A stretch of DNA of 24,150 nt. Source: a virus. The stretch lies in the IMG/VR virus record IMGVR_UViG_3300023179_000503, positions 1 through 24,150 of that record. The stretch is one strand, 5' to 3'. Shown in pieces: positions 1-18,941 of this stretch. Under the pieces are notes generated by a model. It was not told the origin of the DNA. It saw nothing but the letters and a program-made list of their open reading frames with translations, and did not search any database. Both the position numbers and the translations under genes were made by a program. How positions within the stretch are numbered: the first letter of the stretch is position 1; each line of letters starts with the position of its first letter.

Positions 1-3000
1 AAGTTAAAACGTTTTGTCCAGAAACTGTAAAATCAGCCTCTATTACAGAATCACCTTCTGGGCTATAAGGGTGTCCGTTAGACTGTAAAAATAAACTAAA
101 CGAGTTTTTTCTTAATCTATAACCACCCACAAAAACATCTATATCATTTTTAGTTATAATTTCTTGATCAGGACTAAATTTTTCATCGAGAGTAAAACTA
201 GAAGTACTACCATCACTTACTATTTTTTCAATTATCTGTTCTTCATTATAAGAAATAGTTTCGCTATAACCTATGTTAATTACAAGATAATCTTTTTTAT
301 GTCGATAAGGTACACCAGTCCCTAAAGTTCCTCTACGCAGTCTTGATAATTCATTACCATTTTTTTCAAAATATTCAATTCGTTCACCATTTATTTCAAT
401 AATGCCTGGAATATTTTCAGATAATCTAGGGAAATCTAAGACAGATCCGTCAATGACTTTGATAATTGTATCAAATTGATACAGATCTTCTGCTAATCTA
501 GTTGATTTAGATTTATTTAATCTCTTATAATGAACTCTGTTAAACATATCTTTAAACTGCATAAATCCATATCCTTCAGATACTCTATGTGAATTAAAAA
601 TAATTACATCTAGTATATCTGAAGTTTGAATATAATTGGCAAAAATAACTTGATCTAAAGAAGTATCCAGATAAAAATCAATACCTGGTGTAAGAAGATT
701 ATTATTTTTTATAATCCAAACAAAGTCGTCTATATTAACCTGTTTAAACAATCTTAACTTACCTCCTTGTAGACTACTATATCTATAAAAATCCGGAGTA
801 TCTATATCTAATGCAGTAGTATATGTTAAAGATTCTCTTGTCCTAATTATATCTAAGACATTATGATTATAAAAGCTAATAATTTCTATACGCGAATTTA
901 AAACAGGAGGATTGGTAAAAACTATTTGTCCATTAACTATTTGATATTGTTCTCCTACCATGTTAGATACATGCAAAATTCCATTTTCAATGTATGCATT
1001 TGATCTTAATATAATTCTTATACCTGTAATATCAATATTATAATCTACAGATCTCTTTAATAGTTTACCATTTAGGTAGACTGAAATTTTATCTAACTCT
1101 ATTTGATAAGGTACTTGTTCATATCTTGTCAAACGATAAGATAAAATATCATCTTTTAATAAAAAGTATTCGCCTAAGCTTGGATTTAATATTTGTCCAT
1201 CTACTATTACTAATAGGTTAGTATCATAAGGTAAATTCTCTCCTAGATTATGTGCTAGAGAATAAGTTGTAGTAGATCCATCTCCTAAAATTTCTTGAGA
1301 CTTGACAATACTAGCTGTATTATTACTGTCACTGTTCACTATATAATTGATAAGGGCACCGTCTTCAGGAGGTTCAAAAAATCTTATTCCTACTCTGCTA
1401 ATTGTAGTATAATCGCTATCTGTTTCAAAAATCGAATACAAAGAAGATTCACCGTTGACTAAAACTACTACACCATTATTTTCAAAATATGGTGCCGCAG
1501 TAACGAACTCTTTTGTACTGCCATCAGCTACAAAATAATCTTGATCTAATAATTGCTGTGAACTATACCCCAGACTAATTATAGTAACATTTGAATTTTC
1601 TATAGGAGAAGAATTAAACACTACAGTCCTATTGGACCAGTCGAAAACATAAGCTGATCTATCCACAATGGTAGAATTTACTTTTACTATAATAGAGTTA
1701 GAATTTTGAGGTATTTGATTAATCTGGAAACTATTTGTAGATCCATCTGCAATTATCGTTTTAAATAATATTTTTGCAGAATTTCCTGAAGGTAACTGAA
1801 ATACCTTAACTGAAACTGTATCGATAACATGCCCTGGAACAACTTCTTCAGGAGCATAACTAGTATCAGGTGTAATCAATCCGTCACCATCTACAATGAT
1901 GTCTTCTGGGTTTAAGCCAGTTATACCGAAAGACCCTCCAATAAGTTGCGTATCATAATCTTGAGGCTTAGGACTGATACTTCCATCGCTTGATGATTTT
2001 CTGAATATTATACTATCAGTATTTGCTAAATTTAATTGTGAAATAGGTAATGAATAAGTAGAAGTTGTTCCGTTACCAACTATAGTCGCCATTACCGCAT
2101 TTGTATTAGTAATTGGATTACTAGTTCCATAATTAGGATCATCAATTCGAACATTATTCACGTATACATTGATTTGTTGTCCTAATACAGGAACATAATT
2201 TAGACTATAGTTATTAGACGGGCTGTAAGAAAAAATTTGATCCTCAAATCCTTCGTTTATTTCATCCCATAATTCATTACCCCATCCTAGATCATCCCAA
2301 CCTCCTGTGCCTGAGAAATTAACTAATCCTTGAATATCAACTCCACCATAATCTATTCCCGTCATTAGTTGTGAAAAATCATTACCTATCATTCCGATTA
2401 CTGGACTGTAATAATTATAAATTCTATCTAACGCATTGAGATGTAAAAAGTTAATTCTATAATTTATGACAATTATATCACCGCGAGCTGGAGGGGTTTC
2501 AAAATTTAAAATTCCGTAATAACTAGTATAACCACGAGTAGTAGTAGATTTAATACTAAGAAAGTAATCATCTATCAGTATATCTAATCCATTTATTGTC
2601 ACAGAATAACTGTCTTTTGATAATACCGGAGCATATTTTAACACAAACTGAACTTTACTACCTGTTCCTCTAAATTCGTTTTGTATGACATTCAAAGATG
2701 TATAATTATTTGTCCTAGTTGTCCTGTCAAATTTTAAAGACATTTTGTTAGCTCTAACAACTTCAGACTCAATTATTGGAACAACTTTTGCTACTGACCC
2801 TTCGTCTGATAACCCCCCATCGATTATTACTTCAGGAGCTTTCTTATATCCAGAGCCATTATCAATAATTTGTATCCTATTAACCCGTCCTCCACTGATA
2901 TATGCTTTAGCAACAGCAGGTCGAACAGAGTCACCATTGATACGTACTATCGGATTAAACAAGTAACCAGATCCTCCGTCAGCAATTAGCAAGTCAACAA

Positions 3001-6000
3001 CTTTACAACCTAAACTAGTATTAAAATTAAACGTCAAACTATCAGCCGAAGGATTTATATTATAAAGACTGGGAAAATCAAAATCGGTTATAATCGAACT
3101 TGTATTTTCTATCTTCGAATAAGAACTAACATATTCCCTTATCTTTGTTCTAAAAGGCTTTACTTCCTTAATATAATCTTCAAAATTTTCTAAACTATCA
3201 TTTTTATAAGTTACTTTTTGTGCTAACTCTCCCAAATTATGTTTAGCTTTTACAAAACTAGTTTTAGTGATCCAGTCAACAAAAGGTTGCTCATATAAAA
3301 TATATCTCAACGAACTATAAAATAAGTTCAAATATTCCTTATACAAATCGTCTATAAACAAATTGTTCTTGATTACACCTAATATAATTCTAAGTTCTTT
3401 AACTGGCATATTGTCATAGTAAAAACTATCGAATAAATTACCGTCAAATCCTATTATATTTTCAGTAAAATCATATAAACCTTTATAAAATTGAATAGTT
3501 CCATTCTGTCTACCTATTACCTTATAATTTTTTGTATAATCAAAATCTAAAGTGTCAGCATATCTTTCTAATAAAACCCATCCTCCAGTTCCGATATTTT
3601 CTACTTTAACTATCTGTCCTACAGCAACAGTAGATCTATATAATTCAAAAGTGCTTTCTACAATGTAATCAATTTTTACATATTGATTATATCCTTCTGC
3701 ATACCAATCTATATAGTACCAGTACCTTGAAACATCAAAACTTTGACTTTGTAATCTTATAAACTTATTAGAGGAACTATTATACTCATACAAACTCCAG
3801 ATATCAAAAACTGTAGAATCTGACTCAACTAATATTGTAAAATTTCTTACTTTGAGGACTGTATCATCTCTGTATCCAGATCCTTTGTTTAAAATATCTA
3901 CACTAATTACTTGCCCTAAGTCATTTAAATTACATCTTAATTTAGCTCCTATACCACTACCCATTATCTTAACATACGGGCTGTTCACATACCCGTATCC
4001 GGAATTTACTATCTTAATCTCATTTATAGAACCATCCTTTACTATTGCCAACAATACTGCTTGAGCTAATAGACTAGTGTTAATAAATCGCTGTTCTTCT
4101 AATATGGAAATAGATTTATCCCATAATCCTGAACTTTTAGTAGGTGCTTCATCTCGCAAATTTAAATCCGATATATCAACTGTATCGGTAATAACATAAT
4201 TTTTTAAAAGATTATTTGTTCTTTCAATAACTTGTTTTAAAGCTTCAACTCTGTTAATAAACATAGATTGTCTAGGTCTGTTATTAACTCCATAACGTTT
4301 TTTGATAGGAAGTTTTAAATTCGGAACTAGTCTATTTTGATTATCTACGCCTATAAGACTGTCAATCCATTTAGTTTCAATTTCTTTTGGAATAATTGTG
4401 TTTTCATTCAAACTAAACAATTTCCATTGACTATGAGTATTAGTATCAGTATATTGTTCATCTACCAAATAATATTCAATGTTAATATTTGATTTGTTTG
4501 ATCTTACATAATTTGTAAGATTAACTAAAATAAAACTATTATTATCTATAAAAGAAATGCAAGGGTAATTATAAGAGATAGGGTCAGCAATCAATTTACT
4601 TACATCATTAGCACTGAGTTTTCTATCAAGGATGTTAGGAATTATTGCAGGATTTTTGACCCAGAAATAATATGTATTTTTAAAAGTTTGACTAGTGCTA
4701 TCGAAATATCGTCGTATACTGTAACAATCATTTCCATACTTTGATACACCACTTATACCTAGTGAGTCTCCTTTTTCTGTTCCGGATAAGACATCCCATT
4801 CACTAGGTTTATATTTTGTTTCAACCCATTCATAAATGTCTATACTAGCAGTTTTGTATAACTTATTCCAATTAGCAGATTTGTAAGTAATATTTCCCAT
4901 TAAATTATCTACAAACTTAGCCTTAGTCAAATCCCACCATAACATACCTACATGTTGCTTATTCCACGCTTGCCCATCATCAACAATTACATCCGATGTT
5001 CCAACATTATAAGTAGCAGGATCATAATAAGTTTTAAATCTAATTTCCTGATCCGCTGGTCCTGGAATTTTTCCTTGATTAACATTAACTATATCTATAT
5101 AACTTAATAACTTATTTTCTTCTGTATCATAGATATAAACTTTTTTAATTTTTTTAATATCGACATTATCTGCTTGAATATACTTTTCAGACCAGCTCAA
5201 TTTATTAGGAACTTTAGTATAAGAAAATACTTTTCCAACATCAGTAAAATTATCTATTTCTTCGTAAACAGAACTTACCAATATTGTATCTGCTCCAACT
5301 GCTACAGAATAACCATATCCATCAGAAAAATTTGTTGTACTATCAGTATCTAATGATTCTCCAAAAATATAATTATTAGCATACCTATCAAATATTTCTA
5401 TTCTTCCAGAATTTACACGCTTATCTAAGTATCGTAAAGTATTGTTATCAAAGAATGTTGTTTCTTCATCAAATGTTGATATACTATCAACATCGCCGTT
5501 CAATGATAATACAACTAAAGTTTGATCATTGTTCATAAAAGATACATTATAACCAAAATAATCATACGTATCAGGATTTTTACTTCTTATATCTTGTATA
5601 AAATTATAAAGATTATTATTATTTTTTTTATAAATCTTTACTAGACCAGAATTTATTGTACTACCGTCATATTCAGACATACCAAAAGCTAAAGTCGATC
5701 CAGTATCAGATACAGCTATCGAGCTACCAAAGAAACTTACCCCATTTATAGTTTGTAATAAACTAAATTGATCATCATCTCTTTTAAAAATTTTAACAAC
5801 GCTATCTCCTCTTGTTGCATCACCAGAAAGGTCAATCGAGCTAGAAACTAACACAGAACTCAAACTATTAGTTTCAAATAAAGTCACTGAAGTAGCCATC
5901 TGTTGAATTTCAGCGAAAGAAGAATTTACTAACTTATATGAATATATTGTATCAGATGATGAAATTAAAGCAAAATAATTTGTATTATCAAACCCTAATC

Positions 6001-9000
6001 TTATAACAAGACCAAAAGAACTATTCAGCTTGGTTATTGTTTGAAAATATTGAAAGGTGCCTAAAGGACTATCTTTTCTATAAATGTGTACATTACTGGA
6101 ATTATCTAGTCTGATTTCTAAAAATGCCAAAAATTCTCCGTCAGAACTTATTGCCATACTGTCTGCGAATTTTGAGGAATTAGGATAAAACGAATTAATT
6201 ACTTGCTGTTGGGCAAAAGTATAATCCTTTGTATTCTTGAAATAGATATTAATTCCGTTATTATAAGACACTGCACTAATCATTCCAGTCTTATTGATAA
6301 TAACGGATTTTCCGAATAACATATTATTTGATTTTAAATTTAGATTATCAATATAATTTTTAGAATATACCTTACTATAAGTTAAAACAGATTTTTTTTC
6401 AAATCCGTTATTGTCAACCCAGATTAATTCATTATTTTTAATCTTTTTAGGTAGATAATCATTCACATCATCTACATTAGTTACTCTTGATTCTGTAAAT
6501 TTATAAATCAAAGTTTGGGTGCTATCCGATTTTAAATCATCTTCCCATTCTTCAACTTTAGTTCTAATTTTTAAAGTTTTACCTAAAATAGAATCTACTT
6601 TATAAAAACCACTAATTTTATCTATATTAGCGATTCCTATTACTTGTCCTGTTACTAAATCGGATAACTCTGTAAAAACTAATGTCAATACCTCACTCTT
6701 ATAAGATATACTCTCTACTCTAATACCAGTAGATGTTAATCTATAAACAGACCATTGTTTAGCAGAATTTAAAAATGCAGTCCAAACATAATCTCCTTCT
6801 TCAAAATCTGTTATATCCTCATCTAAAATATCTTCAATATCATCCACACTTAACTTTACGTCACTATAACGGACATGCCCTGGAGATCTTAAATAGTCTG
6901 GTTTAATAGTCAAAGGCCATAAATTTTCTTTAAAGCCTTGAGGTTTGATATAAATCTCTGATTGCTTTACTCTATAAACAAAGTCAGGTTGAATAACAGA
7001 AAGCTCTGTGAATTCTAAAGGCTGTGGATTCAATTTTATTTTAGATTCATCTAATTTTATTTCTAACTCGTCAAAAGTAGCTGTATTCCCGTAAGTACCT
7101 ACTCTTAATCCCCATTCCTCATCAAATGTTAAACTTTCTTTATCCTCTGCACTAAGAACATCGAATAATTTATTGAGAACATTTGATGTACCTTTATCTA
7201 AAATCATACCTTGATAGAATTTATATTGACTAATATCATCATTAATAATATTTTCAAGATATCGACGTTTCTGATATCCTATAAGATGTTGTGCAAGTTT
7301 CTGTTGTTCAACATCAAAATTATCACTGTCTAAATCGTAAAAATCTGCAAATTGTTCAGCCTTGTAATCCCAATTAGGTATTAATCTTGATTTAGGTTTA
7401 GAATCTAATTTCGTCCAATCTGTAAAATTAAGTAAATCTGTTCCAGGTAAAAATCGATTAGCACTGTAATAGAAATCTTTATAAAAAACGATATCTCCTA
7501 AATTATAATCTGTCCAAGATTCCCAATCTTTTATCTTTGCTTCATCATAGATAAAACCCGGAATATTAAACTTTCCGTTCCATCCTGTTGTTACGTATCC
7601 CTGTATCTTTAACTTATCTTGTTTATATCCTGCTTCTAAATCATATATTACATCATTAAATAAACTCACATTATCTAATAATAATACATGTTCTTTTTGA
7701 ACAAGTCTAAATTTTGCTCCGTATATACCATGATTAGAATTTATTACCTTAATATTAAATTCATTATTGTCTCTATAAGAATTTACAAAAGAGTCGTCTA
7801 AAAGCTCTCCATCAACTCTAAAAATATTATATCCATAAAATAAATCTCTAATATCATCTACTACAGAAAATTGATTTTTGTATATAATTTTATTTGCCAT
7901 TGGACTTAGACTTATTACACTGCCTGATTTCCAATTTTGAGTAGTCCAGAAAGCAAATTCTTTCACACTGGTTTCCCAGCTTTCTACTGACTTTAAATTA
8001 TTATTATATTCATCAAAAACAAAACCTTCTAATTCAAGATATTTTCCGTACCCTAAAATAAAATCTACTACTTCTTGAATAGTATAAAATACAGTACCAT
8101 AACTTAAAGTATATTCTATTCTTGTATCAAAATCTTTTGATATTAGTATGTCCCTACCACCGATTACAGGTAAAGAAGACAACTTTACATATAAACTTTC
8201 ATTGAATAAATCTTCAGTAGTATGTGTAGCAACTACTCGATAATAATAACTGCTATAATAAACTATTTGACCTACTAAAAATCTCTGATTACTTACCCAT
8301 TCTACATAAATCTCCGATATTCCTCCAATATTATAATTTTTACCGGGACCACTTATAAGATAATACTTAAAGTACGGCCTTTTTTTATCATAACCTCTTA
8401 CTTCAAAACCTGAATCAGTCTTTGTTATTAATACACCACTATAATTTAATTCTTTAATCGGACTACTAGAATTTAAAAATATTTTAAAATTTTCATCTGG
8501 TAAAAATACACCCGAAGTACTACTAGGATTTTTACTAGTTAATATAACTCTTAATTTTTCTTTACTGGTAAATCCAGATAACCTGTAAGAAATCTTATTA
8601 TTAAGATTTTCTAGTTGAAATTTATACTTTTCAATTGGATTAGATAATCCGACATCAAAATTGTTTACTACATAATTTATTAAACCAGATGTATAAGATC
8701 TAATTTCTGTAGTCACAACACTTGGTAATACAATGTCTTTTAATCTAATTCTTAAACCGGTAGGTTTATAGACTAACTGATTTACAATATTTCTAACAAT
8801 TCTACTACGATCAAAACACAAAGAAATTACTCTAGCAGGGTTCATTAGTATTGCAGATTCTAACAAACTGAAAGCATAATAACTACTTCTTCTCCAAGCT
8901 GTTTCTACAGGACCTTGATCTCCAAAAATAAAATAGCCATCATCTATAGGATTTATTAACCCCTTAACGAAATTAGATTGTATTGGATCAAGTAAAGATC

Positions 9001-12000
9001 CGCTGCCATCCACAGGCTTTCCATATTGCAGAATTGGCTTGGCAAATTTAGACCGTACTTTGACAGATTTTCCCGGTTCTCGTATAATACCATCCTTAAT
9101 ATCATCCCATAGCATAAAATTATCGCTAGTGTAAGGATGTGGTCCGTAAACTTCTTTCCACCATATTGGTTCAATACTAAAACCTAAACATTCCCAAGGA
9201 TGCGTATGCGGTCTATCTGTGTCTAATACCCAACGATATATTCCTCGCCAAAAAGCCAAACTTGAAGTATTGTCTGCTAAATTATATCCTCTAAAATTAT
9301 AAGTAAAAGCATTTAATAGATCCCAATCTCCGTTACTTTTAGTATAGTCATTTTGTATTTTACTAGTCCATTGATAAAAGAATTTACTAAGAATGACGTC
9401 TTGTTCAGATTTTAAATAAGATGTAGCTCTATTATGTCCTGGAATATAATCCCAAATATCAAAAATATCAGGATCATATTTAATTTTAATATTATTAAAA
9501 ATTCTTTTTTCTAATTCTAGTAAAACATCATCACGATAATCTTCAAACCCAATTGTAATACTTCCATCGTGTCCTTGAATAACTGTTCGAGGAATAAGGT
9601 AAGTATCATCGATATACTTTCTAGGTTCGTATAAAGGATACAAGCCTAATTTAGTAGGAGTTGGGGGGCAAAAACTTCCGTCAGTTGTTTCATATTCATA
9701 AACTTCTATTTGATCATCTTCTGCTAAATCAGTCAATATTTCAAAAAAATCTCCTAAAAAATTATAATCTTTTCCATGAACTAATTGTATATTATTAAGA
9801 TATATCAATACACTTTTATTAGATAGATTTTCTAAATTAAAAGAATTTTTTAAAGGATAATTTTTTGTTCTAGGATCTAAAACAGTATAAACAAATTTTA
9901 AATTTCCAGTATAACCAAACATATCACTCAAAAACCATGCATCGGTTTTTGGTTTATCTTTATTCATTTCATAAAGTATTAGATCTACTAATTGTTTTGG
10001 CTCTGTATGTACTCCTATTTCGGAAGCTGTGATTAAAAATGTAGTTTTAAATTTGCCGTAATCATTCTTAGCTAATTCTAATGAATTAAAAAGATTAAAA
10101 TCTTTAGATCCTAATGCGTGTAAAGCAAGATTTATTAGACTTGTATGTTGAACGAATCTTATACCAAATGCACTTAAATTTGATAAATCTCTAAGATTCC
10201 CATTTCCTGGATAATCGCCTTTAAACATTAACGGATCTGGAAGATTATCGATTATAGATGACACATGATCAATTACTTCGCCTAAGGTAAAACTATTCAG
10301 ATTATTATTTTGTGGGTTATTTTGAAAATTAATAGGTAATTCGTAATATCCGTTTTGATTTTTTGGTTGTCTACTATAGCATTTCAATGTTACAATATCA
10401 GTTTCTTTTACAGGAGATGCTAAAAAAACTGCTTTCCTAACTACTCCTTGTTCGACTTTAAAATGATAATTACTTAAACGATTTCCATTTATATAAACCT
10501 TTACTACTAGATCAGATAAGTCTAACTGATCATCAAACACATCAATAGGAAACCCAGTAGTAACTCCATCTATCGAACTGTTTTTATAAATTCTTACAAT
10601 AGGTTGAAAATTCTTAACTTGACTTTTTATCCAACCATTTTCATAATGCCAGTTCTCTGTACTATCTATCTTTCTTAAAAATCCTTTATCTGTATTTTTT
10701 TGTAGAACAGTCGTTCCACTCTTATAAAAAAAAGAATCATTTAGCAAATCAAAATTGAAAACAATATCTCCGATATTGCTTATGTTACGATAACTTAGTG
10801 ATAATCCTAACTCAAGATCTGCAGATCCTTCTCCTAATTTATAAGAAAATAATTTTGTTCCAAGAAAACTACTTCCACTATAAACATCGACATCACTATA
10901 ACTATACCCGTACTCGTCAAAAATATCAAATAGCGGAGATTGATTTTTATCAAATTTATTTTGTCCTAAAATCCATTTTGTTCCATTATACCAATACATC
11001 AAACCTTGATTACCTATAACAGTATTTCCATTATAATTGATAACTTCGTTTATCCCAGAATTTACTAACACAGTTTCATAAATTTTAGGATCACTATCTT
11101 CTGTAGGTTCTAAACTAATTTGTCTTCTTAATCCTACTAATATTTCTAAACTATGAGTACCTGAACCTATAGCTAGAATATCAGCTACTTTTAATAATTC
11201 AGGGTCAATATATAATTGAATAGAATAAGCATCTATGACTTTGACATAATAAACCTGCCTGTGTTTTAATAATTGCAATTCGACATTGTTATTACTTAGG
11301 TATACAACTTTATCACCATTTATCAACCCATGTGGGGTATAAGATTTAATTGTATCTGTTTCAATAAAAACTCCTCCGGTAGAATCACTAGGAGGCTCTG
11401 CTTGAAAATCTATTCGACGACTAGTTAAAGTTATATTGATAAACCTAACTTTATAAATTTTTCCATTTACTAATCTATCAGTATCTGCTGTAAAAAGCAC
11501 ACGCATACCGTCTGTTAGATCTATACCATCAATATTATATCCTAAACTACCTTCTATTGTACTAAAAACATCGGTAGTAAAATTATCTATAAGATCAACA
11601 TTAGGTTTATTAATATGACCAAAATTATGAAGTTTTAAATTTGCATCGAATTCGATGATAGGTCTTATGGCTCTTTGCGTCTGATCTAAATCAGCAACAG
11701 ATCCGCGTTGTTTAGCAGTTTCAATAATGATATTTTGATGAAACCATCTATTAGTTCTACTCCAAGGATTCCTATCCTTACTAGTTCTTTTTATTACAAT
11801 ATAATCTTTTGATTTAGGTATACTTGTTTGAGTACTAAAAGGAACTTGGTCAAAAGGATCATTGTCAAATAATAAATTTTTTTCTTCTGTATAACTGGCA
11901 ATTATTTCTAATTCTCTAGAATTAATAAGAGTAATAGCATCACCTACACCATCGACAAGCCAATATCCAGTCTGATAAATCTCAGGTTCAGTCTTACCTG

Positions 12001-12931
12001 TAAACTCTAACTTCATTCCGTTTGATAAAGACATCCCAGACGGTAATGTATAAGTTTTTTTTCCTAATAATTCTTTTTGTACATTTAAAAAAGTATTTTC
12101 CTCAATATCTTTTATTATGAACTGTCCACCAACATTAGGATCTTGTTCACTTACATAGTATAAAACATCAGGAGCATTAAATGGAATATTAAATATTACA
12201 GTTCCATTTTCAACACTATTTTGACTCACTATATCAGTATCATTAGTATAACGATTATCAAAGCCTTTGACTCTAGAAGTTTTAATGCTGAAAGGATGAT
12301 CGGTACTTTGAATTGTAAATCTATAAGTTTGTCCTCTATATAAAACTAATCTAGGATTTCTAGTAAGTCCGTCTGGAGTAAACAAATAAGCAAATACATC
12401 TCCTTGGTCCTCTAAGACCACTGTAAATGTACTATCAATTTCCAATTGTTGACCTATTATAGGTATAGGATCAGGGCCATAAGGTAACCAATAATACTGT
12501 TGAAAATTAGCAAATTTGTCCCAATCTATATGTGGATTCCAACTATAAAATTCTTGTTCAGATAGCCTTTGATGGTTAGTTGTGTCTCCATCTAATAGAT
12601 TAATATGATTTATATAATCAATGTAATCTTTAAAGAAATCAACATTGCCAAATCGATCCTCAATGACTGCTGCCGGTTCTAATTGATAATCTTGTCTATT
12701 TTTTTCCGGAGATTCAATAAAGACATCTGTATTTTTAACACTTTTAGCATCTTGGCGGCCAACAAAACTACTAACTTTTTTAACTGTTCCTGGCTGTATT
12801 AATTGATCAACTGTCGATGACAAAAACTTTTTATTAGTATCAGTTCGATAAAATCTAGGTAACAAATTAAAAGATTTTCTATCGTTATCCTGACTTGAAA
12901 TTGGTAGTGGATATTCATTATCTAGAGACAT
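1..12931 (-). CDS. Giant multi-domain baseplate/tail structural protein in the gp7 position, partial (C-terminus outside window)
   Basis: Starting at the ATG at 12931, 2 bases after the gp6 stop and preceded by AGGA, the frame stays open for 4310 codons and leaves the window. I checked the frame at many points down to base 2. The place after gp6 is that of T4 gp7 (1032 aa), so a structural role in the baseplate wedge or tail periphery is inferred from position, not from recognised gp7 homology. Modules in order: N-terminal motif LLPRFYRTDTNKKFL (residues ~23-37); cupredoxin-like RGxTYxF segment (~192-273); DGVTTGF module (~780-850); HDGS...LLELEKRI motif (~1118-1146); conserved-looking TDRPHTHPWE to ETAWRRSS block (~1233-1367); two GDIVFY/GQIVYY carbohydrate-binding-like modules (~1541-1585, ~1801-1843); beta-propeller (~2196-2573); two pairs of GSGY repeats (~2974-3020, ~3315-3372); several DGST modules (~3613-4245); LRRGTLGTG motif (~4196-4204). 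No signal peptide or membrane segment is seen. It could be a fusion of gp7 with fibre-like parts. Confidence 0.85.
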   Translation of the reverse strand, partial: MSLDNEYPLPISSQDNDRKSFNLLPRFYRTDTNKKFLSSTVDQLIQPGTVKKVSSFVGRQDAKSVKNTDVFIESPEKNRQDYQLEPAAVIEDRFGNVDFFKDYIDYINHINLLDGDTTNHQRLSEQEFYSWNPHIDWDKFANFQQYYWLPYGPDPIPIIGQQLEIDSTFTVVLEDQGDVFAYLFTPDGLTRNPRLVLYRGQTYRFTIQSTDHPFSIKTSRVKGFDNRYTNDTDIVSQNSVENGTVIFNIPFNAPDVLYYVSEQDPNVGGQFIIKDIEENTFLNVQKELLGKKTYTLPSGMSLSNGMKLEFTGKTEPEIYQTGYWLVDGVGDAITLINSRELEIIASYTEEKNLLFDNDPFDQVPFSTQTSIPKSKDYIVIKRTSKDRNPWSRTNRWFHQNIIIETAKQRGSVADLDQTQRAIRPIIEFDANLKLHNFGHINKPNVDLIDNFTTDVFSTIEGSLGYNIDGIDLTDGMRVLFTADTDRLVNGKIYKVRFINITLTSRRIDFQAEPPSDSTGGVFIETDTIKSYTPHGLINGDKVVYLSNNNVELQLLKHRQVYYVKVIDAYSIQLYIDPELLKVADILAIGSGTHSLEILVGLRRQISLEPTEDSDPKIYETVLVNSGINEVINYNGNTVIGNQGLMYWYNGTKWILGQNKFDKNQSPLFDIFDEYGYSYSDVDVYSGSSFLGTKLFSYKLGEGSADLELGLSLSYRNISNIGDIVFNFDLLNDSFFYKSGTTVLQKNTDKGFLRKIDSTENWHYENGWIKSQVKNFQPIVRIYKNSSIDGVTTGFPIDVFDDQLDLSDLVVKVYINGNRLSNYHFKVEQGVVRKAVFLASPVKETDIVTLKCYSRQPKNQNGYYELPINFQNNPQNNNLNSFTLGEVIDHVSSIIDNLPDPLMFKGDYPGNGNLRDLSNLSAFGIRFVQHTSLINLALHALGSKDFNLFNSLELAKNDYGKFKTTFLITASEIGVHTEPKQLVDLILYEMNKDKPKTDAWFLSDMFGYTGNLKFVYTVLDPRTKNYPLKNSFNLENLSNKSVLIYLNNIQLVHGKDYNFLGDFFEILTDLAEDDQIEVYEYETTDGSFCPPTPTKLGLYPLYEPRKYIDDTYLIPRTVIQGHDGSITIGFEDYRDDVLLELEKRIFNNIKIKYDPDIFDIWDYIPGHNRATSYLKSEQDVILSKFFYQWTSKIQNDYTKSNGDWDLLNAFTYNFRGYNLADNTSSLAFWRGIYRWVLDTDRPHTHPWECLGFSIEPIWWKEVYGPHPYTSDNFMLWDDIKDGIIREPGKSVKVRSKFAKPILQYGKPVDGSGSLLDPIQSNFVKGLINPIDDGYFIFGDQGPVETAWRRSSYYAFSLLESAILMNPARVISLCFDRSRIVRNIVNQLVYKPTGLRIRLKDIVLPSVVTTEIRSYTSGLINYVVNNFDVGLSNPIEKYKFQLENLNNKISYRLSGFTSKEKLRVILTSKNPSSTSGVFLPDENFKIFLNSSSPIKELNYSGVLITKTDSGFEVRGYDKKRPYFKYYLISGPGKNYNIGGISEIYVEWVSNQRFLVGQIVYYSSYYYRVVATHTTEDLFNESLYVKLSSLPVIGGRDILISKDFDTRIEYTLSYGTVFYTIQEVVDFILGYGKYLELEGFVFDEYNNNLKSVESWETSVKEFAFWTTQNWKSGSVISLSPMANKIIYKNQFSVVDDIRDLFYGYNIFRVDGELLDDSFVNSYRDNNEFNIKVINSNHGIYGAKFRLVQKEHVLLLDNVSLFNDVIYDLEAGYKQDKLKIQGYVTTGWNGKFNIPGFIYDEAKIKDWESWTDYNLGDIVFYKDFYYSANRFLPGTDLLNFTDWTKLDSKPKSRLIPNWDYKAEQFADFYDLDSDNFDVEQQKLAQHLIGYQKRRYLENIINDDISQYKFYQGMILDKGTSNVLNKLFDVLSAEDKESLTFDEEWGLRVGTYGNTATFDELEIKLDESKIKLNPQPLEFTELSVIQPDFVYRVKQSEIYIKPQGFKENLWPLTIKPDYLRSPGHVRYSDVKLSVDDIEDILDEDITDFEEGDYVWTAFLNSAKQWSVYRLTSTGIRVESISYKSEVLTLVFTELSDLVTGQVIGIANIDKISGFYKVDSILGKTLKIRTKVEEWEDDLKSDSTQTLIYKFTESRVTNVDDVNDYLPKKIKNNELIWVDNNGFEKKSVLTYSKVYSKNYIDNLNLKSNNMLFGKSVIINKTGMISAVSYNNGINIYFKNTKDYTFAQQQVINSFYPNSSKFADSMAISSDGEFLAFLEIRLDNSSNVHIYRKDSPLGTFQYFQTITKLNSSFGLVIRLGFDNTNYFALISSSDTIYSYKLVNSSFAEIQQMATSVTLFETNSLSSVLVSSSIDLSGDATRGDSVVKIFKRDDDQFSLLQTINGVSFFGSSIAVSDTGSTLAFGMSEYDGSTINSGLVKIYKKNNNNLYNFIQDIRSKNPDTYDYFGYNVSFMNNDQTLVVLSLNGDVDSISTFDEETTFFDNNTLRYLDKRVNSGRIEIFDRYANNYIFGESLDTDSTTNFSDGYGYSVAVGADTILVSSVYEEIDNFTDVGKVFSYTKVPNKLSWSEKYIQADNVDIKKIKKVYIYDTEENKLLSYIDIVNVNQGKIPGPADQEIRFKTYYDPATYNVGTSDVIVDDGQAWNKQHVGMLWWDLTKAKFVDNLMGNITYKSANWNKLYKTASIDIYEWVETKYKPSEWDVLSGTEKGDSLGISGVSKYGNDCYSIRRYFDSTSQTFKNTYYFWVKNPAIIPNILDRKLSANDVSKLIADPISYNYPCISFIDNNSFILVNLTNYVRSNKSNINIEYYLVDEQYTDTNTHSQWKLFSLNENTIIPKEIETKWIDSLIGVDNQNRLVPNLKLPIKKRYGVNNRPRQSMFINRVEALKQVIERTNNLLKNYVITDTVDISDLNLRDEAPTKSSGLWDKSISILEEQRFINTSLLAQAVLLAIVKDGSINEIKIVNSGYGYVNSPYVKIMGSGIGAKLRCNLNDLGQVISVDILNKGSGYRDDTVLKVRNFTILVESDSTVFDIWSLYEYNSSSNKFIRLQSQSFDVSRYWYYIDWYAEGYNQYVKIDYIVESTFELYRSTVAVGQIVKVENIGTGGWVLLERYADTLDFDYTKNYKVIGRQNGTIQFYKGLYDFTENIIGFDGNLFDSFYYDNMPVKELRIILGVIKNNLFIDDLYKEYLNLFYSSLRYILYEQPFVDWITKTSFVKAKHNLGELAQKVTYKNDSLENFEDYIKEVKPFRTKIREYVSSYSKIENTSSIITDFDFPSLYNINPSADSLTFNFNTSLGCKVVDLLIADGGSGYLFNPIVRINGDSVRPAVAKAYISGGRVNRIQIIDNGSGYKKAPEVIIDGGLSDEGSVAKVVPIIESEVVRANKMSLKFDRTTRTNNYTSLNVIQNEFRGTGSKVQFVLKYAPVLSKDSYSVTINGLDILIDDYFLSIKSTTTRGYTSYYGILNFETPPARGDIIVINYRINFLHLNALDRIYNYYSPVIGMIGNDFSQLMTGIDYGGVDIQGLVNFSGTGGWDDLGWGNELWDEINEGFEDQIFSYSPSNNYSLNYVPVLGQQINVYVNNVRIDDPNYGTSNPITNTNAVMATIVGNGTTSTYSLPISQLNLANTDSIIFRKSSSDGSISPKPQDYDTQLIGGSFGITGLNPEDIIVDGDGLITPDTSYAPEEVVPGHVIDTVSVKVFQLPSGNSAKILFKTIIADGSTNSFQINQIPQNSNSIIVKVNSTIVDRSAYVFDWSNRTVVFNSSPIENSNVTIISLGYSSQQLLDQDYFVADGSTKEFVTAAPYFENNGVVVLVNGESSLYSIFETDSDYTTISRVGIRFFEPPEDGALINYIVNSDSNNTASIVKSQEILGDGSTTTYSLAHNLGENLPYDTNLLVIVDGQILNPSLGEYFLLKDDILSYRLTRYEQVPYQIELDKISVYLNGKLLKRSVDYNIDITGIRIILRSNAYIENGILHVSNMVGEQYQIVNGQIVFTNPPVLNSRIEIISFYNHNVLDIIRTRESLTYTTALDIDTPDFYRYSSLQGGKLRLFKQVNIDDFVWIIKNNNLLTPGIDFYLDTSLDQVIFANYIQTSDILDVIIFNSHRVSEGYGFMQFKDMFNRVHYKRLNKSKSTRLAEDLYQFDTIIKVIDGSVLDFPRLSENIPGIIEINGERIEYFEKNGNELSRLRRGTLGTGVPYRHKKDYLVINIGYSETISYNEEQIIEKIVSDGSTSSFTLDEKFSPDQEIITKNDIDVFVGGYRLRKNSFSLFLQSNGHPYSPEGDSVIEADFTVSGQNVLT
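180..2095 (-). repeat. Tandem DGST beta-modules near the C-terminal side of the giant protein
   Basis: Five copies of a motif G/SDGSTxxFxL (one GNGTTSTYSL) start near bases 2085, 1755, 1540, 1300 and 215, at residues ~3615, ~3726, ~3798, ~3878 and ~4239. Each is followed by a strand such as VVVLVNGE, LLVIVDGQ or IDVFVGGY, then a P.P..G..I.. type ending (for example FFEPPEDGALINYI). The plan 'GDGSTTTFxL ... V.VNG... ..F..PP..G..I.V' is a well-known phage fibre and baseplate beta-sandwich module. An isolated sixth copy, NSSIDGVTTGF, lies far upstream near base 10580. Copies are diverged at DNA level. Confidence 0.65.
2805..3000 (-). repeat. GSGY repeat pair 2 in the giant protein
   Basis: Residues ~3311-3376 contain IADGGSGYLFNPIVRINGD, a linker with GGRVNRIQII, then DNGSGYKKAPEVIIDGG. 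The spacing between the two GSGY motifs (about 38 residues) is close to that in the earlier pair, so the same module occurs twice about 340 residues apart. Internal duplication or exchange with tail-fibre genes is a reasonable inference. Confidence 0.65.
3870..4020 (-). repeat. GSGY repeat pair 1 in the giant protein
   Basis: Residues ~2971-3020 contain VNSGYGYVNSPYVKIMGSG, a linker with GQVISVDIL, then NKGSGYRDDTVLKV. The unit (I.N.GSGY...P.V.I.G.G.GA...... G.V..I.I) is a short beta repeat common in phage fibres and marine phage structural proteins. The second copy is degenerate, since TVLKV replaces P.V.I. Confidence 0.6.
5215..6345 (-). repeat. Seven-unit beta-propeller (FG-GAP-like) inside the giant protein
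   Basis: Residues ~2196-2573 contain about seven units of 40-70 residues with the plan FGxSVAxSxDGxxLAxxx...GxVxIYxK. Visible unit starts or ends include FGKSVIINKTG with INIYFKN; FADSMAISSDGEFLAFLE with VHIYRK; FGLVIRLGF with TIYSYKL; a weaker unit ending VVKIFKR; FGSSIAVSDTGSTLAFGM with GLVKIYKK; FGYNVSFMNNDQTLVVLS with GRIEIFDR; and YGYSVAVGADTILVSSVY with GKVFSYTK. The units are diverged, so they are invisible as DNA repeats and clear only in protein. Seven is the most common blade number of such propellers. Propellers typically bind proteins or glycans on one face. Confidence 0.65.
7405..7530 (-). other. Carbohydrate-binding-like module 2 of the giant protein
   Basis: Residues ~1801-1843 read DWESWTDYNLGDIVFYKDFY, then YSANRFLPGT, then FTDWTKL. 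This fits the CBM5/12-type pattern better than module 1: Trp before the GD.V.Y core, a YYSA strand, and a Trp at the end. It lies about 260 residues after module 1, so the two look like related repeats separated by other domains. Binding to a cell-surface glycan would suit a baseplate or fibre part, but that is inference. Confidence 0.45.
8180..8310 (-). other. Carbohydrate-binding-like module 1 of the giant protein
   Basis: Residues ~1541-1585 read W.SNQRFLVGQIVYYSSYYYRVV and end in YVKLSSLP. The pattern (aromatic residue, short gap, GxIVYYxxxYYR, then a closing aromatic-K-L) resembles the small CBM5/12 chitin-binding fold, where the consensus is roughly W..Y..GD.V.Y.G..Y.A....P....W. The last Trp is replaced by Tyr here. 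A sugar-binding role is inferred. It may be only a small structural beta domain. Confidence 0.4.
12115..12358 (-). other. Cupredoxin-like segment of the giant protein
   Basis: This stretch encodes residues ~192-273. It reads PRLVLYRGQTYRFTIQ, then HPFSIKT, then a strand-rich part ending LYYVSEQDPNVGGQFII. The order RGxTYxFxI, HPFxIxT, GTVxFxxP..AP..LYY is the pattern of plastocyanin-like beta-sandwich domains that recur in marine phage structural proteins. I see HPF but not a full His-Cys-His-Met copper site, so a purely structural beta-sandwich is more likely than a metal site. The assignment rests on motif memory only. Confidence 0.5.
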
Positions 12932-12933
12932 CT

Positions 12934-15900
12934 TTAATTTCCTATACTAGTAATATTTTGTTGTGATAATATCTTAGAAGAATAACTAACTTCGCCTATT
13001 GCTTTAATTCGTGAAGCAGTAATAGAACTAATTATTTCTACATCATCTGTTCCTGCGCTACTAATAAAAATTTGATCTTTTTCTGCTTTAATTTCTAGTA
13101 AACTTCCAAATGTTAAATTGTCTTTTTTAGGAACAATTAAAAAATTTGTAATACTAGTAGCTAACTGATTCATTACATATGTAGATAACTCTGTAAAATA
13201 AAAGTTATCACCGAAGTCCCAATTATCAATAGCAAAAAATTCATTAATTGCACTTATAACTTTAGATTTAACATCATTATCACTGATTACAACTTCAGGA
13301 TTTTTAACTATCTTGAATATTGCCTGAAGATCCGCACTAGCAGTTTTACCGAATAATACTTTATATCGTGCAGGATGATATATGATTTCATCACTTATAC
13401 TCTTAACTAAGTTTAAGCCTGAACTTAATGTATTATACAAGCTATCTGTACTAGGTGGCAAAGGCTCTATCGTTCTAGTACCATTTAAATATTCTCTAAA
13501 CAATTGATCATATTGTTTAGTCATTACATAGATATCAATTAAATTAGTAATTCCCGGATCGATTCTAGTTTCATAATCAGCATTATGAATATATTGAAAT
13601 CTTAAATTGCCCCTTCCTACATAGCACTTATAATCACTAGTTATAGATAATTTACCTATTGTCTTAGTCAAAATTTTCACTAATCCAGAGTCTTCAAAAT
13701 AAAAATATTGTCCATCTGGGTATTCGGTAAAATCAGTTAGAATTGATTCTGACGATACAATATATACTATTCCATAATCTGTGCCATTATCATTTACTAC
13801 ATATCTATAATCTTCCTGTTGATCTTCAATAAAATATTTTTCTAAAATAATATAATCGTCTTGATTACTAATTGTATTATTACCAATGATGAAATCAAAA
13901 ATTTCTGGGTTATCTACAATACCATCATCGTCACTATCCGCAAAGCTTATTTGTATTTTTTTCGTATCGACATAACCATCTAATCCTCTAAATTCTTCAA
14001 CTATTTCCCAATCAAAATCTGTTGTAAAACTGCTATTAGATGTGCTATTTTTATCTACATTAATACTTAGAATCTTAATTTTATCCTTTTCAACCGTATT
14101 TGTTCTCGTATCATATATCTTATCACTGCTGTCAAAAAAGAATCTTACCTGTTTATCGCTTTCAAAAATATATCTTAAAAATCTAAAAGTTACAGTATAA
14201 TATTCGCTATCAGAAACAAAACTTACTAACCAACTACTATCTGTTTTTTCATTTATATTACTACCAGTTTGTCCCAAACTAAAACTATCATTTAAATTTA
14301 GATTGACATCATAAATTATTTTCCAAATATTAGTATCCTGATCATATCTCAATCCAAATGGTTTATGTTCATAGATTAAATCAATCATAGAACTAATCGT
14401 ATTAGCTGTTAAAGATGTTTTGAAAGGAGCGATAACAGTTACAAGTTTTGAATGTTCAGGGATAACATCATTTAAACGAACTGTGCCTTCTCCTGTCGTC
14501 AAAGTTCCTGATCCTCCGTTTGTTCCGTCTCCGTAAACATTAATAACTTTCGTCCACAAAACATTTGTAGTGCCAAAACTATTTTGTTGAACTAATTTAT
14601 TATTTTCTAAAATGTTAAAATAATACCCGTCAGGAGCCTGAAACTTTAATAAAGAACCTATTAAAACATTTTTTAAAGTGGTTGAAGTATATGTACCTAA
14701 TTTTAAAGCAACAAGTGGTGTATTATTATTTCTTAAAAATCCTGTTGTTAAATTCACATCTGTGGTTAAACTTCTCCAGATAATATTCAAATCTTTAGTA
14801 GGAAATTTTTTAAAATTATTATAATAAAAATCTCTCATTACAGATTTACTCATGTTGTCATATAATTCATTGTAAATTATCGATTCAATATCTGTTTTAG
14901 TGACAAATTTAAATTGAAAATTACTAGTAAATTCTTCTTTATAAATTATACCATCATCAGCAAATATGTTTGTTTTACTATACTTTCCTGTAGGATCAAC
15001 TAAATCAAAATAACGACTTATACCGCTGCTAGATCTATTAACTGCTTTAATTTTCATTATTTGTTGGTTAACTGTAAATGGCATCAAATTATAATCTTCA
15101 GCCGTTATCATTCTATTTTGCGTATAAAAATTTGCAGGAGCTTTTTGCTTGATACTATCTGAAGATTCCGGAGGACTACTATTATTAACACTACTAACTA
15201 AACTCAAACTTATAATAAGACTTTCTGGTTGATTAAAATTACTAACATAAGGAATTTCAATGCTTATATTCCGCATATCTCTAGGATTTATTGTATAAGA
15301 AACACCTTCGCTAGTTCTATAATATACTCTAAAAGTTCCTAAAGGTATATTTCCAAAAACTCCATCGCTAAATTGTAAAGTAATTCTATCACTCAATCTT
15401 GTTATAACAGAATAAAAATTCCTTATTGATTTTTCAAGACTGTTATATATTACATTATTGCCTTCTATAGCAGGTAACTTTTCCCAAAGTTCGTATTCTT
15501 GACCATTTTGATTTAGCTTATAAAGCCATACATCACTATTGTTTATATTATTGCTATCAATATCTAAGGTAGTATTAGGAACTGGCTGTGTAAAGTTAAA
15601 AGATCCTTGATTCAATTGTCCTTGTTTAAACAGGAAAAAGAAACCAGTATTCGAACTGGCGTTACCTTTACCATCATTGCGGTATAAAAATGCTAATCTA
15701 TTACCCTGCGAAGGAGATTCTTCATATATTTCATCTTTATTTTTAAATGAACTACTTACTATTTCGAATGACATCATTCTTCCATCTATATTTTTATCAA
15801 AACTATAGATAGGAACATCAACATTACTACTCTGAAATCTATATTGTTCTGAAGTAACACCTGAAATTATTTTACGATCATCTGGATTTCCAAATTGCCT

Positions 15901-16401
15901 TGTTATAGGTAATGCAGCATTAATTATTTTTATAAACTGATCGTACCAATTTGAATTAGCAGGATCATTCCATGATATAACTTGACCTGCAAGATTTCTT
16001 CCATTGCTATCTAGAACATTTTGAGTAGATTGCAAACTAGTAATTTTTAAAAATCCACTACCTGGAATATTTCTCTTTGCATTATAACTCAATAATCTAG
16101 CTAGTCGTAAAACGCTTTCTCTACGCTCAGCAAGCTCTAAAAAATTATCACGACTATTTAAATCAACTCTAAAAGCTATACTTTGACCTAAAAATGCTAT
16201 CAGATCAATTAGAGCCAAATATTCACTACTTTCTATATAATCGTTAAAATCTTCAGGATAATTTTCTCTAATATATTGAATCATAGTTCTGCGTAGATTT
16301 TCAAAATCATAACTTTGAAAATCTGCATTACGGTAAGTCTGATATATTCTACGCCAATCTTCGGCAACTAATAATCTATTTTGTCTATCAGTTATTGACA
16401 T
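12934..16401 (-). CDS. 6: Baseplate wedge protein gp6, enlarged (Baseplate J-like)
   Basis: gp6 dimers link the T4 baseplate wedges into the ring around the hub. Residues ~10-110 carry the typical N-terminus (AEDWRRIYQTYRN, SSEYLALIDLIAFLGQSIAF, RDNFLELAERRESVLRLARL). The middle has the Baseplate J-like part (FSDGVFGNIPLGTFRVYYRTS near 344-364). The C-terminal domain at ~985-1130 ends in NWDFGDNFYFTELSTYV and is typical of the family. At 1155 aa it is much longer than T4 gp6 (660 aa). The extra length lies mainly between about residues 600 and 960. That part holds an EF-hand-like loop, DSDDDGIVDNPE (822-833). ATG start at 16401 with a GGAAGAA ribosome site at 16404-16410, and a late promoter candidate just upstream. 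It ends 2 bases before the giant gene. Confidence 0.93.
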   Translation of the reverse strand: MSITDRQNRLLVAEDWRRIYQTYRNADFQSYDFENLRRTMIQYIRENYPEDFNDYIESSEYLALIDLIAFLGQSIAFRVDLNSRDNFLELAERRESVLRLARLLSYNAKRNIPGSGFLKITSLQSTQNVLDSNGRNLAGQVISWNDPANSNWYDQFIKIINAALPITRQFGNPDDRKIISGVTSEQYRFQSSNVDVPIYSFDKNIDGRMMSFEIVSSSFKNKDEIYEESPSQGNRLAFLYRNDGKGNASSNTGFFFLFKQGQLNQGSFNFTQPVPNTTLDIDSNNINNSDVWLYKLNQNGQEYELWEKLPAIEGNNVIYNSLEKSIRNFYSVITRLSDRITLQFSDGVFGNIPLGTFRVYYRTSEGVSYTINPRDMRNISIEIPYVSNFNQPESLIISLSLVSSVNNSSPPESSDSIKQKAPANFYTQNRMITAEDYNLMPFTVNQQIMKIKAVNRSSSGISRYFDLVDPTGKYSKTNIFADDGIIYKEEFTSNFQFKFVTKTDIESIIYNELYDNMSKSVMRDFYYNNFKKFPTKDLNIIWRSLTTDVNLTTGFLRNNNTPLVALKLGTYTSTTLKNVLIGSLLKFQAPDGYYFNILENNKLVQQNSFGTTNVLWTKVINVYGDGTNGGSGTLTTGEGTVRLNDVIPEHSKLVTVIAPFKTSLTANTISSMIDLIYEHKPFGLRYDQDTNIWKIIYDVNLNLNDSFSLGQTGSNINEKTDSSWLVSFVSDSEYYTVTFRFLRYIFESDKQVRFFFDSSDKIYDTRTNTVEKDKIKILSINVDKNSTSNSSFTTDFDWEIVEEFRGLDGYVDTKKIQISFADSDDDGIVDNPEIFDFIIGNNTISNQDDYIILEKYFIEDQQEDYRYVVNDNGTDYGIVYIVSSESILTDFTEYPDGQYFYFEDSGLVKILTKTIGKLSITSDYKCYVGRGNLRFQYIHNADYETRIDPGITNLIDIYVMTKQYDQLFREYLNGTRTIEPLPPSTDSLYNTLSSGLNLVKSISDEIIYHPARYKVLFGKTASADLQAIFKIVKNPEVVISDNDVKSKVISAINEFFAIDNWDFGDNFYFTELSTYVMNQLATSITNFLIVPKKDNLTFGSLLEIKAEKDQIFISSAGTDDVEIISSITASRIKAIGEVSYSSKILSQQNITSIGN

Positions 16402-16446: not shown

Positions 16447-16887
16447 TTATCCTATCAGCAATCCGTTATCTTGATCAAATCTTAACTGCAAAGCCTCTTG
16501 AATATTATATGGAAAATAAGTTAACACACATTCGATCTGTATCCCTTGTTCATAAGTTGTAACAATAACTTGTTCGGCTCTTACTCTAGGATCATAATTA
16601 ATAATTGCTTCTACATTTTTAATTACGGCTGTTTTAAGTTCTTCTGTTAGTGGTTCAAAAATAAGATCCCAAACAATAGTACCAAACTCTGGTTGCTCTA
16701 GTCTTTCCCCCATCCTTATATGAAACATATTAATAAGATCTTGTTTAATCAGCTGTAAATCGTAGAGACTAAAGGTATTAGATCCAGAAACTGTACTAAA
16801 TCCTTTATAAGTTTTAGAACCAGCTATAAAATTAGACTTACCGTTAGATAATGTAATCTTATCATATAATTTACTACTCGCTGTCAT
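16447..16887 (-). CDS. 25: Baseplate wedge protein gp25 (sheath initiator)
   Basis: gp25 sits in the wedge core and starts sheath polymerisation in T4-like tails. The protein is 146 aa, close to T4 gp25 (132 aa). The family signature is in the middle: QDLINMFHIRMGERLEQPEF, then GTIVWDLIFEPLTEEL, then INYDPRVRAEQVIV. The C-terminus ends LRFDQDNGLLIG. I chose the ATG at 16887 because it overlaps the gp5 stop as ATGA and has GGGGAA close by and AAGGA further upstream. A TTG at 16896 would add three residues (MGN). Confidence 0.93.
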   Translation of the reverse strand: MTASSKLYDKITLSNGKSNFIAGSKTYKGFSTVSGSNTFSLYDLQLIKQDLINMFHIRMGERLEQPEFGTIVWDLIFEPLTEELKTAVIKNVEAIINYDPRVRAEQVIVTTYEQGIQIECVLTYFPYNIQEALQLRFDQDNGLLIG

Positions 16888-18941
16888 ATTCCCCAAAGTC
16901 CTTCTTCATTTTCATTTGCTTCTACTGGAGGGTCTCTAGTAAAGGTATCTTTACTTGTAGTATATTTCCTCCATTCTGACGCTGGTTTAGCTAATGATTC
17001 AGTAGGAGTAGGATCACTAGCAGGATGATATCTATCGTCACTGTCTCTATCTAATCCTGGGCTTTCTCCTCCTTTGTCAGGTTTAAACTTTAAAGGATCG
17101 AGATTTTCGTGGTGTGGATAAGGCTCATATGTCGGAACTCGTCTTAATATTGTTTCTAAAGTTTCTAAAGATTCCCAAGCATCTTGGCTTGATAAATCTG
17201 GCAATTTATGCATTTTAGCATTTAACGGTATAGTAGCTTTAGCTGTTACTCTTGCTTCTTCAGACTGTTCTGCTTCAGATGCTGTAGAAGCAGTTGGACC
17301 GTTCATATGGATAACTGGAGCTGTTTCAATAATTGAGGCACCAGATAGTGTTTCATTACTACCTCCTGATGTAGTAAAAACATGTCCTCCTACGTTGATA
17401 TCTTGATCTTGATTAACCTTTAACTTATGAGATCCTTCCACAATATGATCTAAATTTGTCCCGCTTAAATTCCAAATTCTTGTATCTTTATAAATTTTAA
17501 CATCAACCCTATCTGGAGTAGGACCATTATGATCCTCTACAGGACTACTTGTTTCTTCATCACTGCTTGTAGGATCATCTCCGTCTTGGTTGGTAGATTC
17601 CATAGGTGCAAACTGGGCTCCCGATGCACCATTGCCTGCGGTAAAACTTACACCATCTGCCACTCTGTAATCGAAACGTCCATCTATATTATGTGAGTAA
17701 TCTTTAGCATAATATTTTTTAACATCATCATTAACTGTTTGTCTAAATTGTTCATCCACAGTTTCATCTTTACGACGCTTAATATGAATTTTTTGATCTC
17801 TATCAACAATTAAAACTTGATCTTTTATTACCTTAGTGTGCATTTCCCCATGCACCTTTGTGTTAAAATTACGACCAACTTCTAAATTAAAATCTCTGTC
17901 ACAATAAAAATTAAAATCTTGTTTTGTTCTTATACTAATACTATCTTCACTAAAAATGTCTATCTTCCCATCGCTAGTCAGCTCTATCCAAGCAGTACCT
18001 CTAGCATTACTGATGTAAATTAAATCTTCACTATTGTGTAATAATATTTGATGACCTGTTCTCGTTCTTAATCTAATCAGTTCGTTATGGGGCCTATCTC
18101 TCAGACCAAATTTCTTTTCTTCTACGCTTTTATATATTGGAGGACCATCGGTAGGTAACTTCTCTCTTTCCCATTTATCGTCGCCGTCATCCATGACAAA
18201 ACTACTACCTCCAAGACGACTAACGAAATGTGAATTTTCTTCGCTTTCAGCCTTACCAACTTTACCAGTTTTACCTGATTTATCTGTAGGACCTGGAGTA
18301 CTAATACCAAATACCATACTAGGAACTTCTCTACGACCGCTAGAAGTAGTGATTCCCCTAGTATCATCTTTAAGAAGACCCTGATCTTCCAGCACTTTAG
18401 CGAAAGGATGTTCAGGTTTTAATTTTTTTGTAGGATCTTCGTTTCCTTCGTGAATTTTTTTATTATATTCAGATACTGGTACTCTCGATTTTTCTCTATC
18501 AGTTTGTCTACTTTCATCTACTATATAACCTGTACTGGCATACCCAGGAACAGTAAAGTTCATATTTTCGTTGATCATCGGACAACCTATCCAATAACCC
18601 CTCTTTTCATCTCCATTTAAAAAAATTACAACAACATAACTTCCTACATCTGGAGGTATCATCCACATTCCATATGCTTTTTGAGCTTCATTGTGTGTAT
18701 CAGGATCTAGTCCTAAGAAATCATAACTAGTAACACCATAAAATGGACTTAAGTATTTTACTTGACGAACTTGACTTCCACTTTTTTCATTATTTCCAAC
18801 TTCTCTCATTAATTGAACTTCAAGAGTACCATTATAAGTTTGGTCAGCTACACTTATAACCTTTGCTAGACAAGGCGTACCGTCCTTAGTAGTTGTACCT
18901 GGACTTGATCTTGTGTCTTCTGTAGGAGTTCTATTTGTCAT
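16884..18941 (-). CDS. 5: Baseplate central spike protein gp5 (VgrG-like, no lysozyme domain)
   Basis: This is the membrane-piercing spike under the tail tube. Residues ~23-125 form the gp5 OB-fold (CLAKVISVADQTYNGTLEV, YGMWMIPPDVGSYVVVIFLN, GDEKRGYWIGCP). Residues ~130-285 are a charged, low-complexity linker where T4 gp5 (575 aa) has its lysozyme domain. I see no T4-lysozyme-like sequence there. From ~295 comes the VgrG/gp5 beta-helix entry (HNELIRLRTRTGHQILLHNS, TAWIELTSDGKIDIFSEDSI), followed by short beta repeats (FNLEVGRNFNTKVHGEMHTK). A later Asp/Ser/Glu-rich linker (~446-470) leads to another beta part, SHKLKVNQDQDINVGGHVFT. The tail after ~560 is Pro/Glu/Ser-rich. ATG at 18941 overlaps the preceding stop as ATGA, with GGGAG at 18951-18956. 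Confidence 0.92.
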   Translation of the reverse strand: MTNRTPTEDTRSSPGTTTKDGTPCLAKVISVADQTYNGTLEVQLMREVGNNEKSGSQVRQVKYLSPFYGVTSYDFLGLDPDTHNEAQKAYGMWMIPPDVGSYVVVIFLNGDEKRGYWIGCPMINENMNFTVPGYASTGYIVDESRQTDREKSRVPVSEYNKKIHEGNEDPTKKLKPEHPFAKVLEDQGLLKDDTRGITTSSGRREVPSMVFGISTPGPTDKSGKTGKVGKAESEENSHFVSRLGGSSFVMDDGDDKWEREKLPTDGPPIYKSVEEKKFGLRDRPHNELIRLRTRTGHQILLHNSEDLIYISNARGTAWIELTSDGKIDIFSEDSISIRTKQDFNFYCDRDFNLEVGRNFNTKVHGEMHTKVIKDQVLIVDRDQKIHIKRRKDETVDEQFRQTVNDDVKKYYAKDYSHNIDGRFDYRVADGVSFTAGNGASGAQFAPMESTNQDGDDPTSSDEETSSPVEDHNGPTPDRVDVKIYKDTRIWNLSGTNLDHIVEGSHKLKVNQDQDINVGGHVFTTSGGSNETLSGASIIETAPVIHMNGPTASTASEAEQSEEARVTAKATIPLNAKMHKLPDLSSQDAWESLETLETILRRVPTYEPYPHHENLDPLKFKPDKGGESPGLDRDSDDRYHPASDPTPTESLAKPASEWRKYTTSKDTFTRDPPVEANENEEGLWGI

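Follow-up and report, generated by a model that had tools for sequence, protein, structure and literature searches.

The window, i.e. the entire 24,150-base virus record that was analyzed, carries a cluster of baseplate genes, all of which lie on the minus strand, as do all the features of the window located hereafter. Read along this strand, it comprises a 99-aa protein (21259..21558) attributed to the gp53 position of the wedge from its location and the look of its sequence, a 773-aa virion structural protein (18938..21259), a gp5-type baseplate hub/tail lysozyme (16884..18941), a gp25-type wedge subunit (16447..16896; phrog_261 and phrog_43), a gp6-type baseplate wedge subunit of 1155 aa (12934..16401; phrog_10646, E 4e-296, and phrog_219) and a giant structural protein (2..12931), of which 4310 aa are seen and about 52-61 aa are predicted to be missing at the 3' end. 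PBECO4 has a wedge subunit of roughly 104 aa in the same slot as the 99-aa gp53-like protein. The wedge or baseplate position previously proposed for the giant is sustained by the gp53-like, gp5, gp25 and gp6 genes found directly upstream of it. The flanking genes, encoding a late sigma factor and a SbcD-like protein, are arranged as in PA5oct, which places the phage of origin in this broad jumbo group. Searching the phage collection for nearly identical DNA gave no match to the window, and bacterial genomes scanned with gp6 yielded no related prophage.

The frame of the giant opens with an ATG at 12931, separated by 2 bases from the gp6 stop codon (ending at 12934) and preceded by an AGGAAAT stretch, and it runs stop-free up to the contig edge, where the gene is cut off. 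Over the same 12.9 kb the remaining five frames contain 256-678 stops, and the probability of 4310 stop-free codons arising by chance at 31% G+C is ~10^-152. The earlier note had described a single frame of at least 4310 codons starting 2 bases after gp6 and a mass exceeding 470 kDa within the window; both statements hold, the calculated mass being 492 kDa (pI 4.9). An in-frame stop or a frameshift splitting the gene was looked for and is absent, in the frame itself as well as in the comparison with two complete relatives (L006 and L007), which a single BLAST alignment shows to be collinear with residues 1-4309 (60% identity), so that no frameshift is hidden in this frame. That the open frame might be an assembly artefact or several joined genes is a concern raised by the single contig seen, ending inside the gene, but it is hardly credible and was rejected, since the alignment is collinear across these 4309 residues and the same single frame occurs in many independent contigs and in several isolate genomes. 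Self-comparison revealed no long internal repeats in the giant. As the window is the whole virus record, the giant's own 3' end is unreadable; in the five close complete relatives whose alignment extends to the last residue seen here (G001, G003, G004, G005 and G007), the stop lies 52-61 residues further, and by this comparison the full-length protein should be about 4360-4370 aa.

The giant matches PHROG 10938 ('virion structural protein') with an E-value of 1.3e-297 over five stretches, and it displays the two features of this family, namely similarity along the profile and a gene located directly after a gp6-type wedge gene. It is an environmental member of a family of giant virion proteins from the baseplate region that had been catalogued before. 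Among isolates, the slot after the gp6-type gene is occupied by Atu_ph07 gp180 (4449 aa), Phosso 294 (4555 aa), PA5oct gp355 (3857 aa) and PBECO4 gp538 (3333 aa), with a gp25-gp6-giant synteny in all four. In AP-J-162, a 4455-aa 'structural protein' (ORF58) follows a 1198-aa wedge protein (PMC11242549); this ORF58 and phAPEC6 gp245 were assigned as equivalents by their position and size, as given in the papers, and CBB_236 by its position and by a tblastn match to the window giant in the CBB genome. More than 300 IMG/VR stretches encode relatives, the longest open frame among those measured reaching 5165 aa. The size of the giant, previously viewed as exceptional, turns out to be the rule in the RaK2/PA5oct/Atu_ph07-like clade and in cyanophages, and within its own clade the finding made in the window is, on its own, ordinary. 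Few phage proteins exceed these giants in size; their catalogue entry reads just 'virion structural protein', and the cited phage papers assign no role to them.

Mass spectrometry of equivalents supports a location in the virion. The annotation of PA5oct gp355 carries an 'ESI-MS/MS' note, phAPEC6 gp245 (381.9 kDa), neighbour of the wedge protein gp244, was recovered in virions with 17 unique peptides (PMC7247149), and CBB_236, neighbour of the wedge protein CBB_237, with 21 peptides (PMC5259590). By analogy with these equivalents, we infer that the window giant is a virion protein.

AlphaFold models of aa 1-1085 (mean pLDDT 79) and aa 1080-2275 (mean pLDDT 77) display strings of beta domains. 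The conserved body of the protein extends from aa 1 to about 2270 and over aa 2600-3290; variable beta modules lie between these two parts and after them, and inserts at about aa 501-601 and 2269-2400 are present or absent depending on the relative. A cupredoxin-like beta domain (aa 162-278; 12098..12448) matches copper nitrite reductase with a VIA Z of 11; the rows aligned over this domain lack the Cys that serves true cupredoxins as a copper ligand, making copper binding unlikely, and the function of the domain is probably structural. Tail-fibre and minor tail proteins of cyanophages also gave matches to this stretch. It is followed by a small beta domain resembling the UBA1 FCCH/endosialidase-stalk type (aa 503-600; 11132..11425), which is optional and missing in many relatives, by a weakly matching chitin-binding (CBM5/12-like) module (about aa 1542-1580; 8192..8308), a second CBM5/12-like stretch below the Pfam cut-off (aa 1803-1823; 7463..7525), a second FCCH/endosialidase-stalk-like beta domain (aa 2064-2146; 6494..6742) and a FG-GAP type beta-propeller (about aa 2190-2570; 5222..6364), the last of which falls where the conserved body varies most. 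Further along, two GSGY-type beta modules (aa 2957-3022; 3866..4063, and aa 3284-3370; 2822..3082) are common to the cyanophage giant P-RSM4_106, and five T7-fibre-N-like small beta repeats were detected over aa 3418-3977 (1001..2680). The adhesion- and fibre-type modules that the earlier note had suspected in the giant are supported by these profile and structure-model matches (CBM-like, FG-GAP and T7-fibre-N-like).

Conservation over 68 family members culminates at aa 1850-1949 (7085..7384), the top 100-aa window of the giant, in which FYQGMI-x-x-KGT...LFDVL resembles the gp7 core (FYSTKGI...LFKVL in T4). In a profile-profile scan (hhalign) of the whole giant, cut into overlapping tiles, against a gp7-core profile (consensus FYxxKGx..S..FLF.lLy), the tiles at aa ~1910-1945 ranked first and second, with a score reached by 0-1 out of 100 column-shuffled profiles and a hhalign probability of only 4-6%. 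The matched stretch lies within KFYQGMILDKGTSNVLNKLFDVLSAED, inside aa 1850-1949. The motif was spotted by eye before the final gp7 profile was built, so that the profile itself was not an entirely blind choice, unlike the ranking of the tiles and the measure of conservation. The comparison of slices of the giant with T4 gp7 had been suggested as a check: hhalign found no significant match of such slices to T4 gp7 alone, nor to a six-sequence Straboviridae gp7 profile; the top rank of aa ~1910-1945 was obtained with the gp7-core profile. HMMER searches with a 13-sequence gp7-core profile returned no match in the window, in four complete relatives and in eight relative contigs, and those of the family profiles against PDB sequences retrieved only CBM, FG-GAP/integrin and a tailspike stretch, and no gp7. 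With the models of aa 1-1085 and 1080-2275, Foldseek/VIA matched single beta domains only and no whole protein; T4 gp7 was not among the matches listed, an outcome that leaves gp7 in contention. Modelled as a monomer, the putative core has low confidence; like aa 46-117, it is conserved yet poorly predicted alone, which would fit parts folding with partners. Taken with the position of the gene, the core match is suggestive, though no proof, of a homology between the giant and gp7.

The slot after gp6 is that of gene 7 in T4 (1032 aa), and in six Kyanoviridae it encodes proteins whose lengths, taken in part from annotated coordinates, are 1892, 3274 (S-RIM44), 3544 (ACG-2014b), 6603 (P-RSM4_106), 7019 (ACG-2014g gp084) and 7351 aa (P-TIM40 gp099). 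The T4 gp7 core motif is present in 6/6 of the Kyanoviridae checked (T4 FYSTKGIEASYKFLFKVLYNEE; P-RSM4 FYTAKGTSFSISYLFKLLYGE), and the P-RSM4 giant matches T4-like gp7 at this core with a best E-value of 3.5e-4 in a small pairwise test on six sequences. Since these slot giants carry the gp7 core, gp7 can be enlarged in such a manner, and a giant gp7 is a known arrangement, though annotated only as structural protein. The cyanophage genes for the 6603-, 7351- and 7019-aa proteins (L190:367-20178, L194 from 17101 and L195 from 17012, respectively) bear the sole annotation of virion structural protein.

Because of the slot after gp6, the conserved core with its gp7-like motif and the gp7-bearing giants of cyanophages, we favour the giant being a gp7-type wedge protein of a RaK2/PA5oct/Atu_ph07-like jumbo myophage, with a probability of roughly 0.68. 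It could otherwise be a peripheral baseplate protein specific to the clade, a scaffold or adhesin lodged in this slot, the true gp7 being lost or unrecognisable elsewhere. The silence of HMMER on gp7, the carbohydrate-binding and fibre-type modules and the bulk of the giant's mass, which has no counterpart in T4 gp7, would agree with such a protein. We nevertheless consider it unlikely, given that the slot is the same as that of gp7, that the conserved gp7-like motif is the top-ranked tile of the giant, that cyanophages have gp7-bearing giants in this very slot and that a search of four complete relatives yielded no alternative gp7 candidate.

The genes located downstream of the giant in relatives bear on the further proposal of the earlier note that it replaces several separate T4 genes. 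Behind the giant, complete relatives encode a conserved ~202-aa protein (PHROG 11259), a collar-domain fibre and several more proteins of fibre type; a protein with the T4 gp9/10 N-domain comes directly after the giant in two relatives (G011 and G012), and PA5oct encodes a Gp10_C protein close downstream. Within the giant, no Pfam match to a gp8, gp9 or gp10 domain was obtained up to an E-value of 1. The replacement of gp9 and gp10 is contradicted by these separately encoded gp9/10-N, collar-fibre or Gp10_C proteins, and the absorption of gp9/gp10 by the giant was rejected. The search for separate genes in relatives differed for gp8 (PF09215), which was not found in four complete isolates (Atu_ph07, PA5oct, PBECO4 and Phosso) and five contigs, the T4, Vibrio and cyanophage controls giving matches. 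A fusion taking over the T4 wedge genes 7, 8, 9 and 10 could draw on this gap in the four isolates and on a length sufficient for such functions, but it is improbable in view of the lack of any of these domains inside the giant, of the gp9/10-N genes that directly follow it in two relatives, of the Gp10_C protein of PA5oct, of the collar and other fibre genes of the closest relatives, and of P-RSM4, whose slot protein is larger still and which retains separate gp9 and gp8 genes downstream of it.

Several further observations were made on relatives. The PHROG 11259 protein (L173:7555-8163; same slot in L174-L181) is encoded immediately or shortly behind the giant in nearly all of them, PA5oct among these, which makes it a candidate for an otherwise missing component of the wedge or adaptor kind, gp8 for instance. 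Two environmental relatives encode second giants matching the T4 gp9/10 N-terminal domain, with ORFs of 4710 aa in G012 (around 148757-149194, minus strand) and 4741 aa in G013 (around 48386), which are possibly long-fibre anchoring giants. In Atu_ph07, a GIY-YIG homing endonuclease gene is found just after the giant gene (L002:31459-32172).

The T4 wedge unit is a (gp6)2-gp7 heterotrimer, and a baseplate contains six wedges. If the giant is a gp7-type wedge protein, its conserved aa 1850-1949 would pack with the gp6 dimer, like gp7 in this unit, and the remainder would form a large shell outside the wedge, which may serve as a rigid scaffold for the separately encoded downstream adaptor and fibre proteins. 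The CBM-like, propeller and fibre-type repeat modules could make weak contacts with the cell envelope, and the baseplate would be about 3 MDa heavier with six copies. More tentatively still, and with appreciable doubt, the RaK2/Atu_ph07-like jumbo phages and the cyanophages may each have acquired gp7-type giants on their own, by the gathering of beta modules around a core of ~100 residues, the jumbo giant perhaps also filling the role of gp8, in which case the wedge exterior would be one chain displaying glycan-binding modules of its own. Naming these giants enlarged wedge proteins gives them a testable place in the baseplate and, if the wedge reading is true, marks gp7 as a point at which surface modules are added in distinct phage lineages.

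Compared with known systems, the window giant resembles T4 gp7 by its gene lying directly after gp6 and by the short KGT...LF motif of its most conserved segment, whereas T4 gp7 is four times shorter and shares no significant sequence similarity with it. The Kyanoviridae giants follow the same principle, combining in the slot after gp6 a gp7-type core with many beta modules, some of which can be aligned with those of the window giant (E 1e-7 to 1e-8); the bodies of the proteins, in contrast, are not alignable, the gp7 core is clear in the Kyanoviridae giants, and P-RSM4 has gp8 and gp9 as separate genes. With the PHROG 10938 isolates, the identity is of 22-34% per aligned stretch, some of the insert modules are missing, the C-terminal ends are different and the cupredoxin-like domain is unaligned in all four isolates compared. 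These isolates nonetheless share with the window giant the slot after gp6 and the size class (3333-4555 aa), and the proteins of Atu_ph07, Phosso, PA5oct and PBECO4 are homologous to it over most of its first 3290 residues.
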